Source of the DNA: a virus
Strand: one strand, 5' to 3'
Virus record (IMG/VR): IMGVR_UViG_3300013093_000206
Span: 1-28,114 of that record
Length of the DNA: 28,114 bases
In this document: in pieces, positions 2,914-26,240 of the stretch
How the letters are laid out: each line of letters starts with the position of its first letter
Position numbering within the stretch: position 1 is the first letter of the stretch
Notes under the pieces: generated by a model
What the model saw: the letters and a program-made list of their open reading frames with translations, nothing else
Told to the model about the DNA's origin: nothing
Database searches by the model: none
Program-made: the position numbers and the translations under genes

Positions 2914-3311
2914 CAGAATCAGCTATATCATTTCCGTTCTCTATTGATAGCCGAGGCTCTATTGCCTACACCACGGACATCAACAAGATATGGGAAGACC
3001 GCGTACGGCTAGTTCTATTTACTAGCGAGCACGAGCGTGTTATGCGCCCCACCTTTGGGACTCAAATTAGAGACCTGGTGTTTGAAAGCAACTACTCAAC
3101 AACTACTGCCGCGGAAAGAGTTGTGGCTGGAGCTTTTGCTCGATGGCTTCCTGCCCTAAAGCTGAAAAATGTAATTGCCCTCCCAGACGACGTTAACGGA
3201 GGTTTAATCATTCAAGTTAATTATACTTTACCTAACGGTACTCCAGGTAGCCTGATGGCTCCTACCACAACGGCCAACCTTAATCGCTACGGCGACGTAG
3301 TTACACAGTAG
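2910..3311 (+). CDS. Baseplate wedge protein, gp25/gpW-like
   Basis: 133 residues starting at ATG 2910, which overlaps the spike stop (ATGA) and has GGGAG at 2898-2902. An in-frame ATG at 2892 has no comparable ribosome site. The segment DINKIWEDRVRLVLFTSEHER followed by RPTFGTQIRDLVFE matches the conserved core of gp25-like wedge proteins, including the R-P-x-F-G-(T/S) motif. Gp25 proteins anchor the wedge to the sheath initiation point and are universal in contractile tails. Position between spike and baseplate-J genes is standard. Confidence 0.85.
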   Translation: MTESAISFPFSIDSRGSIAYTTDINKIWEDRVRLVLFTSEHERVMRPTFGTQIRDLVFESNYSTTTAAERVVAGAFARWLPALKLKNVIALPDDVNGGLIIQVNYTLPNGTPGSLMAPTTTANLNRYGDVVTQ

Positions 3312-7785: not shown

Positions 7786-8388
7786 ATGGACAACCAAACC
7801 TATATCGTCGTCGCTGGAAGCGGCGAGACAAGTCGTAACAACGTAGAAGCCCTGCTGGGCGATTACTTTATCCTGCTCAAGCAGAAGAAGAACATCCCTG
7901 TTTTGGTATTGGTCGCTGGAAAGAAAACTTCCATAGGCCAAAATTGGGCTGCCCAATATGCCAAGGAGAAGAACATCGAGACCGTTCTCTTTGTTGAAAC
8001 TGAGATAGCTGCTAACAGCATGAACGGCGTCTCCTTCGATGTATCAGAAGACCCAGTCGCTGGAGCCATCAACCTTGTAGGAGACCGCGGCCAAGCCTTC
8101 TTGCTTTGGGAAGATGCGGACGGCGATATAGCCGAAACCCTCTCACGACTCTCTAACGCGGGAATCCCCTGTTTTGACCTGACCAACGGCTTATACGAAC
8201 TGACCCCAGGTGCCGTTCTAAAGGCCCCTACAGCCCCTGTAGAGCCCGTAGAGGCTCCCAAGGATATTCCATCAGTTCCTGAAAAGCCTAAAGCCTCTAC
8301 GGTCGTTACAGACACGAATCGGGATTCCGCTATCCGTCAAGCCGCCTTGGACTTCGCTGAAGCCATCATCAAGGCACTTAATGCTTAG
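7786..8388 (+). CDS. Rossmann-like protein, possible SLOG-family nucleotide sensor
   Basis: 200 residues from ATG 7786, chosen because GGGAG ends 4 bases upstream; the frame also extends to GTG 7753, which would lie inside the promoter. The first 140 residues alternate strands and helices: TYIVVAGSGETS, then IPVLVLVAGKKTSIGQNW followed by an Ala-rich helix, then AFLLWEDADGDIAETLSRL with IPCFDLTNGL. This layout resembles SLOG/YspA-like Rossmannoid domains, which bind nucleotide-derived ligands. A Pro/Val/Glu-rich linker (about 148-172) joins a C-terminal helix. It is the first gene after the candidate promoter, so it is probably made early. The SLOG call is tentative; a plain conserved phage protein is the alternative. 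Confidence 0.4.
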   Translation: MDNQTYIVVAGSGETSRNNVEALLGDYFILLKQKKNIPVLVLVAGKKTSIGQNWAAQYAKEKNIETVLFVETEIAANSMNGVSFDVSEDPVAGAINLVGDRGQAFLLWEDADGDIAETLSRLSNAGIPCFDLTNGLYELTPGAVLKAPTAPVEPVEAPKDIPSVPEKPKASTVVTDTNRDSAIRQAALDFAEAIIKALNA

Positions 8389-9283
8389 CCTTCGCGCTAC
8401 TGGACTCTACGCGTACATTTGCCAGAATCCTGACGAGTCGCTTTCGGCTGTCTCCATCGCCAAGCACTTTAAGGAAGGCGAGAAGGCTATTCGCACCGCC
8501 CTCAATGAATTGCGGGATGCGGGATTAATCACGACTCGGACAATACGGACATCTGCGGGTCAGCTCATCAAGGTGACTGAGCTGGTAGTGGACTCCCAAA
8601 ACCGAACGGCGGAAAACGGCGGATACACACAGCTGTCTGAGCCCTATAGCCAGAACAGCCTATTTACAGAAATAGCTAGTTCTTCTAATAGAGCTAGAAG
8701 CTTTGCAAATTGTAAAACGGAGTTTTACGAGGAAGAAACCTTTCATGAGATTGGAGAAAAGATGGGCTACGAGTTCTTCGGCAAGACGTCTTCGTCGGAC
8801 GACGACTCAGTCAAGGAACGCTCTCGTTATGAGGCTAAGCGGGCAGAAGAAAAACGGCAAGCCCAGCTCAAACGCCATGAAGACAAGGTTGAGTACCGTG
8901 ACCGTAAGCGAACTGACCCCACGCTATGGACTTCGTCCGATACAGCTCGGGAGTTTGCCAACATGCTCCACGAACGCTGGGACATTCCTCCGTGGCAAGT
9001 AAGCAGTACTCCTTTAGCCGCCGCCATCTACAGCGCTAGGGTAAAGTTCCAAACTGACGGGGCCGTGGAGCTTCGGATGTTGAAGATGTTCTTTGCTCAA
9101 GAGAACGTGAAGGCTATGAAAGACCCGAACGTCATGTGGCGATACTTCATCACGTCCTTCGGTTCTTTGGCCGAACGTGCTAAGCTGGAGATGCCCGACC
9201 CTGAGAAACAGCGACGGGCAGAAGAACGAGCCGCTATTGTTAACGCGTCACTATTCGAGAACTACGAGGACACAGATGTATAA
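8381..9283 (+). CDS. Winged-helix DNA-binding protein, likely replication initiation or loader partner
   Basis: 300 residues; ATG 8381 overlaps the preceding stop by 8 bases. The N-terminal 70 residues form a winged helix: a first helix at TGLYAYICQN, SLSAVSIAKHFKEGEKAIRT as helix-turn-helix, then LRDAGLITTRTIRT as helix and wing. The middle (about 145-175) is a highly charged Arg/Lys/Glu helix, and the C-terminal part (about 180-265) is helical. Phage proteins with an N-terminal winged helix directly before a DnaC-like ATPase commonly bind the origin or assist helicase loading. That context is the main argument here; no catalytic motif is present. Confidence 0.6.
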   Translation: MLSLRATGLYAYICQNPDESLSAVSIAKHFKEGEKAIRTALNELRDAGLITTRTIRTSAGQLIKVTELVVDSQNRTAENGGYTQLSEPYSQNSLFTEIASSSNRARSFANCKTEFYEEETFHEIGEKMGYEFFGKTSSSDDDSVKERSRYEAKRAEEKRQAQLKRHEDKVEYRDRKRTDPTLWTSSDTAREFANMLHERWDIPPWQVSSTPLAAAIYSARVKFQTDGAVELRMLKMFFAQENVKAMKDPNVMWRYFITSFGSLAERAKLEMPDPEKQRRAEERAAIVNASLFENYEDTDV

Positions 9284-15132: not shown

Positions 15133-15300
15133 ATGCCTAACGCACCTAAGACCCCAACACGCACTATTCGCGTACCTGACGACCTCTGGAGGGCTGTACA
15201 GGCCAAAGCCAAGAGCAACGGCGTAACTGTTACCAGCGTCATTATTAAATCCCTAGATGCTTACCTAGCTGAAGTTGACACAAAGGGCGTTTCAAACTAA
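15133..15300 (+). CDS. Ribbon-helix-helix (CopG/Arc-like) DNA-binding protein
   Basis: A 55-residue open frame in the gap after the SNF2 gene. The start TRTIRVPDDLWRAVQAKAKS is the classic beta strand and first helix of ribbon-helix-helix repressors. VTVTSVIIKSLDAYL forms the second helix. These proteins dimerise and read DNA through the paired strands. The candidate extended -10 element just upstream implies a leaderless transcript, so the gene may have its own control. Near palindromes such as those at 24425-24436 or 24870-24879 are possible targets, but no link is shown. Length is typical of the family. Confidence 0.72.
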   Translation: MPNAPKTPTRTIRVPDDLWRAVQAKAKSNGVTVTSVIIKSLDAYLAEVDTKGVSN

Positions 15301-15738: not shown

Positions 15739-16191
15739 ATGGAGGACGACCTTATTGACTCAGCGTTTGCTGGCTTGGATGTTTACTATCCAGGTAGCAA
15801 GCGTAAGCGTCGTGATGTCGTAAAGCCTGAGCCTAAGGTTCAGGAAAGTTGGGATTCCAAGCCCTATATCAAAACACTTCCCAGTGGTAAAGACATTGAG
15901 ATGTTTGCTATTGGTGCCTTGGCACAAGCTTTAGGGCGACCACTGATAACTATACGTGCATGGTTTAAGTGGGGCTATTTGCCTGAGTCGCCCTATCGTC
16001 TTCCAACTAAGAAGGACAAAACAGGAGTCGACCGTAAAGGTCGTCGCTTGTACACCAGGCCAATGATTGAGGCTGCAATCTCAATCTTTACAAGGAATGG
16101 ACTTATGGACAATCCGCGTATAGACTGGTCTAAACACCCAACCGTTGCCAAGGAAATTGCTGACGCTTGGGACAACTTAATCGAACAATAA
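15739..16191 (+). CDS. MerR-like helix-turn-helix DNA-binding protein
   Basis: 150 residues with a basic N-terminal patch (SKRKRRDVVK). Residues 56-80 (FAIGALAQALGRPLITIRAW then WGYLP) and the later GRRLYTRPMIEAA give the two halves of a MerR/excisionase-type winged helix: helix-turn-helix, then wing. It lacks a long coiled-coil dimerisation helix and a ligand domain, so it is not a classical metal-responsive MerR. It probably acts as a phage transcription or replication factor. It precedes the ssDNA-binding candidate by 22 bases. Confidence 0.62.
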   Translation: MEDDLIDSAFAGLDVYYPGSKRKRRDVVKPEPKVQESWDSKPYIKTLPSGKDIEMFAIGALAQALGRPLITIRAWFKWGYLPESPYRLPTKKDKTGVDRKGRRLYTRPMIEAAISIFTRNGLMDNPRIDWSKHPTVAKEIADAWDNLIEQ

Positions 16192-24114: not shown

Positions 24115-24402
24115 ATGTCTGAAGTAACACCTGCTCCAGAAGAGCAATTCCTGCGTGTTTCAGCAGGTTCTAACCCCCAGGCCGTAGCTTCGGCCATCGC
24201 CCATTCCATCTATGAGACCCGCACCTGTAAAATTCGTGCGGTTGGCGCTGGTGCCGTTAATCAGGCCACCAAAGCTATCGCTATCGCCCGTGGGTATACA
24301 GCCCCTCGAGGCATCGATATCGCCTACGTCCCAGGCTTCACTACTATTCAGAGCCACGATGGGGATATATCCGCCATGGTTTTAACCGTTATTGTCCTGT
24401 AA
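24115..24402 (+). CDS. spoVS: SpoVS-family (Alba-like) protein
   Basis: 95 residues. After a short leader, LRVSAGSNPQAVASAIAHSI, then IRAVGAGAVNQATKAIAIAR, then TAPRGIDIAYVPGF align in order with Bacillus stage V sporulation protein S, including the GAGAxNQAxKAxAIARG core and AP-x-G-x-D. SpoVS has an Alba-like nucleic-acid-binding fold and affects sporulation and cell division in Bacillus; its molecular role is not well settled. The gene has its own gap, hairpin and ribosome site, so it may be controlled separately. In a phage it could act as a nucleoid or RNA-binding protein. The family call is strong. Confidence 0.88.
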   Translation: MSEVTPAPEEQFLRVSAGSNPQAVASAIAHSIYETRTCKIRAVGAGAVNQATKAIAIARGYTAPRGIDIAYVPGFTTIQSHDGDISAMVLTVIVL

Positions 24403-24443: not shown

Positions 24444-24770
24444 ATGTCAGATAAAGCCCCAAAGAGTGCTTTCCCAACCATGGACGAAAGCGCTACAAAG
24501 AGCGTACAAAACGCTTCTGCAGCACCTTCTAAGAACACCAAGCTCATGCCTAAGAAGGGTGCACAAGCTGGCGACCCAGCCCGTGAAGCTAAGCCTGCAC
24601 GTAAGGAAAGCCTTCGTGAGCGTCAAGGCGCTCGCTACGCAATTCGCGTAAAAATGTCTGGTGGAACCTCGCCAGAAGCTGGTGCAACACAGGCTAACGG
24701 ACGAATAATTCCTCCAGCCGTAAATCGCACACAGCCTAACTTCTCAAGCGGAATGGCTGATTACAACTAA
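24444..24770 (+). CDS. Basic low-complexity protein, function unknown
   Basis: 108 residues rich in Lys, Arg, Ala, Ser and Pro, probably disordered, with a central charged segment (ARKESLRERQGARYAIRVK). No cysteines or enzyme motifs. The ribosome site (AAAGGAAAC) closely resembles that of the ssDNA-binding candidate, suggesting strong expression. A strong terminator follows its stop by 17 bases. Basic disordered proteins of this type are often DNA-binding or virion-associated; no specific role is supported. Confidence 0.55.
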   Translation: MSDKAPKSAFPTMDESATKSVQNASAAPSKNTKLMPKKGAQAGDPAREAKPARKESLRERQGARYAIRVKMSGGTSPEAGATQANGRIIPPAVNRTQPNFSSGMADYN

Positions 24771-24787
24771 GTCCTTTCCCAGCAATT

Positions 24788-24817
24788 AACCCCCTGCCTT
24801 ATGGTCGGGGGTTTTTT
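24788..24817 (+). terminator. Strong intrinsic terminator
   Basis: AACCCCC (24788-24794) pairs with GGGGGTT (24807-24813), with an inner GCC/GGT pairing around TTAT, followed by six T (24812-24817). It ends the transcript of the preceding genes and separates them from the control region downstream. Confidence 0.88.
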
Positions 24818-24820
24818 GTT

Positions 24821-24860
24821 GTCCATTGATGACCATTGGTGTCTATCTATGTCGTTTGAT
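24821..24860 (+). repeat. Four tandem degenerate 10-bp repeats (iteron-like)
   Basis: Four consecutive 10-base blocks align without gaps: GTCCATTGAT, GACCATTGGT, GTCTATCTAT and GTCGTTTGAT. Positions 1 (G), 3 (C), 6 (T) and 10 (T) are identical in all four, and most others in three. The period equals one helical turn, so a protein could bind the same DNA face each time. It lies in the largest non-coding gap of the window, beside a terminator, a palindrome, an A/T-rich tract and a promoter. An origin or multi-site operator is the likely use. Confidence 0.55.
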
Positions 24861-24869
24861 GCTCAAGAA

Positions 24870-24879
24870 CCTTGCAAGG
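24870..24879 (+). repeat. Perfect 10-bp palindrome in the control region
   Basis: CCTTGCAAGG lies 9 bases after the tandem repeats and before the A/T-rich stretch 24887-24898. It resembles the palindrome at 24425-24436 but is two bases shorter. It could be a dimeric regulator site. Confidence 0.35.
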
Positions 24880-24894
24880 CTCTGTCAAAAAATT

Positions 24895-24915
24895 TTTACA
24901 AAAGTGTCGTGTAAA
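24895..24915 (+). promoter_or_regulatory. TTTACA/TGTAAA inverted repeat, candidate operator
   Basis: TTTACA (24895-24900) and TGTAAA (24910-24915) form a perfect dyad with a 9-base spacer, lying just upstream of or overlapping the promoter candidate. It borders the A-run/T-run AAAAAATTTTT (24887-24897). Such dyads commonly bind dimeric regulators. It is a pattern only. Confidence 0.35.
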
Positions 24916-24916
24916 G

Positions 24917-24945
24917 TTATGAAACTTACAAAGGTATGGTAGGCT
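24917..24945 (+). promoter_or_regulatory. Candidate promoter for the 24982-26240 genes
   Basis: An extended -10, TGG then TAGGCT (24940-24945), has TTATGA (24917-24922) 17 bases upstream. Transcription would start near 24952, giving a leader of about 30 bases with AAGGAAA before ATG 24982. The stretch TGGTAGGCTAGA resembles TGGTATACTAGA at 15118-15129. A new promoter is expected here because a strong terminator lies upstream. Confidence 0.5.
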
Positions 24946-24981
24946 AGAGTCGTAACTGTCCATCACACGAAGGAAACGATT

Positions 24982-25236
24982 ATGGATGCTTCACTAAAGT
25001 CTGAGTTCACCAACCTGATAAACAAAACCAAGAACTGCCCCGTGTCTCGATGGTTAGAGACAATTGCTAAGGATGAGCGAGAATTCTTTGAAAAGGAAGT
25101 CTTCTCAGCCAAAATCCAACGCCACATGCTACTAGAAAAGCTACAAGCAACTTACGGTGTTGACTTTAGCGTTAGCTCATTGCGTAACCACCTCGTCAAA
25201 GCCTGCTCATGCTACAAGAATAAGGAATCTAAATGA
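24982..25236 (+). CDS. Small HTH-like protein, possible DNA-binding
   Basis: 84 residues with a strong ribosome site (AAGGAAA). The pattern PVSRWLETIAKDEREFFEKE, then MLLEKLQATYGVDFSVSSL, RNHL and a C-terminal CSCYK resembles short phage helix-turn-helix proteins in which a W-L-x-x-x-x-x-D-E-R helix is followed by a recognition helix S-x-S-x-L-R-x-H and a CxC end. The lone CxC cannot complete a metal site by itself. It is coupled (ATGA) to the phosphoesterase gene. A terminase-small-subunit-like or regulatory role is possible, neither proved. Confidence 0.5.
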   Translation: MDASLKSEFTNLINKTKNCPVSRWLETIAKDEREFFEKEVFSAKIQRHMLLEKLQATYGVDFSVSSLRNHLVKACSCYKNKESK

Positions 25237-26240
25237 CATTAACGTCCGACATGCGGGCCGAGTTCCTGCATCTGCTAACCTCAGATGTAGAGCGCCCCAT
25301 TGATTTCAGCCAAGTAGTACCGAGCAAGGTTGAGGTCAAGGCCCCTAAGAACACCAAGAAGACAACCGATATGAAGGTTGCCCTGCTTGTTCCCGATACC
25401 CAATTTGGTTTTAGAATTGATGAGAACGGTGTAGCTGACCCGTTCCATGATGAGCGTGCACTAGATGTATACAGCCAGATTATGCAGTATGTTCAAGGAA
25501 CCTACGGCATTGACCAAATTGTAAACCTAGGCGACACGATTGATATGCCGTCAGTCAGCAAGCACTTGCAAGAGACCGCGTTTCAGAACGCGTTTCAAGC
25601 ATCGTTGCAAGCTGGATATCTGTTCCTTGCAGAGCAGCGCGCAGTTGCCCCAAATGCTGAAATAGTATTTCTTGAGGGTAACCACGATTGCCGCCTATAC
25701 AAGTATCTGCTCAACAACGCCCCACAAGCCGCGATGTTAAAGCGGGCTGGGGACATTGACCGCTGGCCAGTTAACAGCCTTCCACACCTATTGCGTATGG
25801 ACGAGCTCAAGGTTAATTACGCAAGCGGATATCCAGCTGGAGAGCACCGCATTGTTGGCGACTTGATTGCCAAGCACGGTGACATTGCCAAGAGCAACGG
25901 CTCAACAGCAAGTCAGCACCTCAATAAAAACCATACTATTAGTACAGTCTTCGGGCACACGCATCGTATGGAAATTGCCTATCACACAAGCCATCACCCA
26001 GACGAGCCGAAGCGAAGCGTTGCGTTTAGCCCTGGTTGCCTGTGCCGTGTAGATGGCGCAGTACCTTCAGTCAAGGGCGGAACAACCCCTAACGAGAAGG
26101 CTGTTCGTTACTGGGAGAACTGGCAGCAAGGATTGGGCGTCTGCTTCTATACAGAAGACGGCCGATTTGATATTAAGCCTATCCATATCTTAGATGGTTG
26201 GGCATTCTTCGAGGGAATTGAGTTTAGAGCTTCGAAGTAG
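25233..26240 (+). CDS. Calcineurin-like metallophosphoesterase
   Basis: 335 residues, start overlapping the HTH-like stop. Metal-binding motifs are in order: D55-x-Q57 (LVPDTQFG; Gln replaces the usual His), G100-D101 (NLGDTID), GNHD (149-152), H215 (KHGD) and GHTH (241-244). Length and order match phage metallophosphoesterases. The first 45 residues look like a flexible extension. Members cut phosphodiester or phosphoester bonds in nucleic acids, nucleotides or proteins; the substrate here cannot be told. The Gln at the first motif occurs in some phage members and may alter metal choice. Confidence 0.82.
   Translation: MTLTSDMRAEFLHLLTSDVERPIDFSQVVPSKVEVKAPKNTKKTTDMKVALLVPDTQFGFRIDENGVADPFHDERALDVYSQIMQYVQGTYGIDQIVNLGDTIDMPSVSKHLQETAFQNAFQASLQAGYLFLAEQRAVAPNAEIVFLEGNHDCRLYKYLLNNAPQAAMLKRAGDIDRWPVNSLPHLLRMDELKVNYASGYPAGEHRIVGDLIAKHGDIAKSNGSTASQHLNKNHTISTVFGHTHRMEIAYHTSHHPDEPKRSVAFSPGCLCRVDGAVPSVKGGTTPNEKAVRYWENWQQGLGVCFYTEDGRFDIKPIHILDGWAFFEGIEFRASK

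Follow-up and report, generated by a model that had tools for sequence, protein, structure and literature searches.

An array of five imperfect 10-bp direct repeats separates an intrinsic terminator from the promoter of a conserved phage operon and recurs at the same place in distantly related phages. We favour, with moderate confidence, the explanation that they form an operator array bound side by side, with one protein protomer per helical turn. The repeats were found in a 28,114-base IMG/VR virus record, probably a fragment and here called the window. As an earlier note on this DNA had stated, they sit in its largest clearly non-coding stretch, a gap of 211 bp (24771-24981). A phased direct-repeat operator as such is a known kind of element, to which the window array would add an instance. 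Phages of uncultivated aquatic actinobacteria are abundant, and little is known about the timing of their genes; an array kept in place over large divergence offers a concrete, testable operator, together with a candidate binder and a target operon.

The gene content of the window points to an actinophage. Its DNA polymerase I is nearest to those of Streptomyces phages of the BRock type (~ 40% identical), homologues of its metallophosphoesterase occur chiefly in phages of Mycobacterium, Streptomyces, Microbacterium and Clavibacter, and the protein encoded at 15739-16191 matches, among annotated phage records, only Streptomyces phages. All transcription in the window is on one strand. For comparison we used long related contigs of 59-98 kb. 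The window's own phage is represented by three near-identical contigs only (the window, L002 and L003, the latter two with gaps identical to that of the window), and the set of phages that carry the array amounts to three to four lineages. Neither the gap, at the DNA level, nor the 108-aa gene that precedes it has a relative in the annotated phage collection, and an RNA search gave no Rfam match and no tRNA. A phage-encoded SpoVS-like protein (24115-24402) is kept in all relatives compared.

From 5' to 3', the gap contains the terminator, the 10-bp repeats, the palindrome CCTTGCAAGG, the tract AAAAAATTTTT, a TTTACA/TGTAAA dyad, the promoter and the ribosome site, followed by the ATG (Table 1). 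The strong terminator immediately 5' of the repeats is absent from the earlier note. It is a GC-rich hairpin followed by a T tract and placed 3' of a gene, as is characteristic of intrinsic terminators, and such hairpins, GC-rich and with a T tract, occur at the same position in relatives; the RNA of 24780-24822 folds with -25.4 kcal/mol (z -6.1). The transcription unit of the 108-aa gene ends there. The order of 108-aa gene, terminator, promoter, ~ 80-aa gene and metallophosphoesterase recurs in tens of viral contigs, even in phages whose phosphoesterases are only ~ 50% identical, so the gap is firstly a junction between two transcription units. Most close relatives share this layout, which is that of terminator/promoter junctions between phage operons; unlike the junction itself, the array is an addition, present in some lineages only.

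Table 1. Positions of the gap features, the flanking genes and a candidate regulator in the window.
Feature	Position	Strand	Basis
Upstream gene, 108 aa, unknown function	24444..24770	+	ORF; homologues in at least 80 viral contigs
Intrinsic terminator, AACCCCC...GGGGGTT and T tract	24788..24817	+	RNA fold; same place in relatives
Array, five imperfect 10-bp direct repeats, consensus approximately TTGATGTCCA	24816..24865	+	Tandem scan, shuffles, relatives
Palindrome CCTTGCAAGG	24870..24879		Sequence; centre TTGCAA
A6T5 tract AAAAAATTTTT	24887..24897		Sole A4+T4+ run in the window
TTTACA/TGTAAA dyad	24895-24900, 24910-24915		Sequence
Promoter, weak -35 TTATGA (24917-24922), -10 TAGGCT (24940-24945) preceded by TGG	24917..24945	+	Match to relatives
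Shine-Dalgarno-like AAGGAAACG	24970..24978	+	Sequence; 3 nt 5' of ATG at 24982
First operon gene, 84-aa helical protein	24982..25236	+	Alignment of 33 sequences; model pLDDT 88
Second operon gene, metallophosphoesterase	25233..26240	+	phrog_20266 at 7.6e-72
Candidate binder, MerR-like winged-helix protein, 150 aa	15739..16191	+	Alignment, modelled wHTH core, PDB fold matches

The first protein of the downstream operon belongs to a widespread phage family. Its all-helical model has no PDB fold match, and Pfam, PHROG and NCBIfam gave no match either. C19, W24, H70, C75 and C77 are invariant in the family alignment and may point to a metal site. The second protein is of a phosphoesterase class implicated in counter-defence in a mycobacteriophage (PMC12287305).

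The four 10-bp blocks that had been described as lying in exact tandem are present at 24820-24859 (TGTCCATTGA, TGACCATTGG, TGTCTATCTA and TGTCGTTTGA) and, with a mean pairwise identity of 0.67, are the top 4 x 10 block in the window. A shifted frame gives five units (TTGTTGTCCA TTGATGACCA TTGGTGTCTA TCTATGTCGT TTGATGCTCA, 24816-24865), which keep a strict 10-bp register, the poorest copy being that at 24846-24855. None of 2000 shuffles of the gap reached the array score at a period of 10, and 1 of 2000 did so at any period from 7 to 12. Among shuffles of the whole window, the corresponding counts were 0 of 100 and 10 of 100. The array is significant for the gap, and less so when any period and place are allowed, because of this last count. 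Treated as RNA, it folds no better than shuffles (z values of 0.6, 0.1, -0.8 and 1.5). We therefore rejected a role at the RNA level, and the array, if active, acts as DNA.

Operator arrays of the BldC/excisionase kind have at least two direct repeats, spaced by roughly one turn and close to a promoter, and this is the arrangement found here. With one repeat per turn all units face the same side of the helix, as would be convenient for a protein binding head-to-tail. Under the operator explanation, the upstream unit stops at the intrinsic terminator, and a sigma70-type promoter with the -10 TAGGCT starts the operon that encodes the 84-aa protein and the metallophosphoesterase. The five repeats would serve as a strip for a protein sitting head-to-tail, one protomer per helical turn; the protomers would share one DNA face, and the bound protein would set the output of the promoter. 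We infer this binding and control, as well as the sign of the control and the identity of the binder. No second array was found in the window, nor was one found elsewhere in relatives, and a dispersed operator was rejected. The earlier suggestion of a master control region is supported as to the control region, given the terminator, the array, the promoter, the conserved operon and the array in distant relatives. It is not supported as to "master", with one array per genome placed before one operon.

Our initial view that the repeats were unique to the window phage was wrong, as they also occur in G011, L096-L106 and G003. Scanning whole relatives for tandem repeats, we found TAGTTGTCCA TGGTTGTACA TAGATGTCCA TGGTTGTCTA at 78250 of G011, where they directly follow an Hsp20 gene and lie upstream of the genes for the small protein and the phosphoesterase. 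The array also stands at the syntenic place in L096-L100 and L103-L106 and is partial in L004/G003, which have two to three units immediately after the terminator; L005 and near-identical contigs retain one unit. Whole genomes were scored with a 3-unit motif built from the window alone. In G011 (95 kb) the top site is that at 78250, upstream of the same operon (score 25.1, next 11.5), and in G003 (59 kb) it is at 37394, in the homologous 115-bp gap (score 15.9, next 10.4), whereas in five genomes that lack the array the highest scores are 12.3-14.4, at other places. Local tests in the gaps agree with this scoring. The array has outlasted large divergence, because the small protein of G011 is only ~ 30% identical to that of the window and the phosphoesterase 48%. 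In L096-L100 and L103-L106 the units vary mainly at the same positions (TGTnCATnGn), with TGT, CA and G kept; variation that is confined mainly to fixed positions is as expected of a read-out surface. The array is absent from most relatives that have the same operon. The earlier note named conservation of the repeats as a check; they keep the same place in distant lineages and are missing from most relatives. Judged by sequence comparison, the array is a shared and patchily distributed element with one fixed place, occurring once per genome.

The same observations bear on whether the repeats have a function at all. They could be a decayed, functionless tandem duplication (a minisatellite) in a tolerant gap, inherited or exchanged between relatives. 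The copies are only 67% alike and most relatives do without them, as would suit such a remnant. Similar 10-bp arrays, many of them near-perfect and slippage-type, occur in unrelated bacteria, and a scrambled motif comes close to the motif itself in its number of unrelated viral matches (10 vs 14). We nevertheless consider a minisatellite rather unlikely, given that in two divergent genomes the highest-scoring site of the whole genome is the array before the same operon, and that its units vary mainly at wobble positions around a kept TGT, CA and G. The unrelated viral matches were discarded as background and, together with the bacterial arrays, they imply that likeness outside this phage group means little.

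The bacterial arrays are intergenic, of a kind such as (TGTTCATCGG)n, and occur in many unrelated phyla, including Holophagaceae, Leptospiraceae, Acidobacteria, Verrucomicrobia and others (L202-L267). They often end in TTCATCGGTGG, and a 19-base pattern gave 66 matches. Slippage may be behind many of them. Our literature search found nothing on 10-bp arrays of this kind.

The promoter that had been placed after the repeats is unlisted in a consensus scan of the window and was recognised instead through relatives. Its -10 matches TGTGnTAGGCT-type sites at the same position in L004, L077, L083, L084, L088 and L102; L094 has TGTGCTAGTCT there, further relatives match too, and a TGTGnTAGnCT-type -10 is kept at the right position in many relatives. 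From the end of the array to the -10 there are 74 bp in the window and 29-47 bp in others, so the spacing to the promoter is not fixed. Members of the L096-L106 clade have 6 to 17 bp between the end of the array and the promoter TTGCAA-(17/18)-TATAGT, and this position just 5' of the -35 is the usual place of an activator or repressor. L096 and L103 also have the TTGCAA of the window palindrome 3' of the array, and there it is probably the -35 box. Past the array-linked promoter, L096 (4980-5150) and L103 (4894-5070) have a short leader that includes a GC-rich hairpin (GCCCCCTGCAAATATTTTTGCAGGGGGC) as well as another promoter-like site, possibly giving a short RNA.

Further features named in the earlier note, the palindrome, the A/T tract and the dyad, are all present. 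The palindrome and the dyad are unremarkable alone: 10-bp palindromes are common (16 in the window vs 27 expected), and the 6-bp dyad is near expectation (1 vs a mean of 0.35 per 125 bp). The A6T5 tract is unique in the window, lies 43-53 bp upstream of the -10 and is possibly curved or UP-like DNA.

The note had read the whole as a candidate replication origin, in which an initiator such as the winged-helix protein at 8381, here called DnaD-like, would bind the repeats as iterons and open the A/T tract. We regard this as very improbable. Like the iteron origins of phages and plasmids, the gap has short, helically phased direct repeats (period 10) and a neighbouring A/T tract. The DnaD-like protein has matches among replication initiation families, and the 50-bp neighbourhood at 24887 ranks fourth among the least stable places of the window, with stability over 30 bp and 100 bp unremarkable. 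However, the array sits in a gap between a terminator and a promoter. It also does not track the replisome: most relatives that share the helicase, primase, polymerase and DnaD-like gene are without it, and it is absent in G012, G007, G009 and G010 and from most gaps. Nor does the skew signature of an origin appear here. Cumulative GC skew reaches its minimum not at the gap but at 8467, just within the DnaD-like gene (8381-9283) at its start, and the minimum also falls at the start of the DnaD-like gene in G004 and just before that gene in G012. The other relatives are without a clear pattern, and in none does the skew switch consistently at the gap. Taken alone, skew is a weak argument, because transcription on one strand may shape it. 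An operator is more likely than an origin because distant relatives carry the same repeats at the same place. The DnaD-like protein is plausibly a replication protein, and its locus is a possible place to look for the origin.

Fold matches and a modelled core make the MerR-like winged-helix protein of 15739-16191 the first candidate binder of the array. Its PDB fold matches are nearly all MerR-type, including BldC, RacA and RdfS, with a middling best Z of 5.8, and its homologue in phage GiJojo is annotated as MerR-like HTH, so that it can be classed as a phage-encoded MerR-like winged-helix protein. It has no Pfam or PHROG match, and a PDB sequence search with the MerR-like alignment returned nothing useful. 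The earlier note missed this protein, which makes a third candidate beside the DnaD-like protein and the ribbon-helix-helix protein at 15133. The alternatives as binder are the latter, which is possible, or a host response regulator. Genes for the MerR-like and the ribbon-helix-helix protein occur in phages with and without the array alike, and therefore gene content singles out no binder. Identification by gene presence was likewise given up: no gene is common to the array-carrying phages yet absent from the others, in a comparison for which the window covers part of a genome.

The MerR-like protein BldC binds direct repeats head-to-tail (PMC5859096), and on its long site the molecules are one DNA turn apart (PMC5859096, PMC11963761). 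BldC operators of Streptomyces (Schumacher et al. 2018, PMC5859096) resemble the window array in their variable number of direct repeats upstream of promoters and in being read by a winged-helix protein sitting head-to-tail, and the window phage encodes a MerR-like protein. Unlike the 10-bp TTGATGTCCA-like units here, BldC sites have the 9-bp consensus AATTnnnnC; the array does not match it, and we rejected the label of BldC site. The phage protein is also larger (150 aa, with extra ends), and is a candidate binder only. RdfS has been modelled to bind head-to-tail along DNA, and the excisionase filaments of RdfS and lambda Xis likewise place winged-helix protomers about one per turn, these proteins being also transcription factors (PMC11963761). 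RdfS is without a consensus motif, in contrast to the array here, whose unit can be recognised in different clades, and no integrase or attachment site was seen adjoining the window array. Elsewhere, L188 and L265 have a TGTnCA-type array near an integrase with an Arm-DNA-bind_3 domain, L188 also with an AlpA gene, and these arrays are possibly arm-type sites.

Sites of OmpR/PhoB-kind regulators are tandem 10- or 11-bp direct repeats next to the -35. As a sub-case of the operator, the array could be a landing site for such a host response regulator, through which the phage would read the state of the host, for example nutrient stress. Response regulators that bind direct repeats are mentioned in PMC5859096, the tandem repeats of the L096-L106 clade, standing just 5' of the -35 box, are similar to such sites in their overall layout, and the patchy distribution of the array would fit differing hosts. 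Yet no such array is tied to any host regulon and the unit matches no regulator site that could be checked here, which leaves this sub-case unlikely.

A second phased class was seen among the genomes compared, with CTGAGA repeats spaced at exactly 11 bp in the non-coding DNA immediately upstream of minus-strand genes. These arrays are at 55879, 58329, 59445 and 60277 of the reverse complement of G010 (the contig of L068; L166-L170) and at 54686 of G003 (L146); CTGAGA pairs number 9 at a spacing of 11, 6 at 22 and 0 at the other spacings from 7 to 23. It is a rather unlikely extension of the operator reading that this actinophage group uses phased arrays of at least two unit types, 10-bp TGTnCA and 11-bp CTGAGA, the latter before several operons of the other genome arm, each type being read by its own filament-forming phage protein and the phosphoesterase operon being included. 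One of the genes behind the CTGAGA arrays encodes a Sigma70_r2 domain. At 3304 of G007 (L156) there is a non-coding 11-bp array of four CGTTATCAATT-like copies, with two more boxes nearby.
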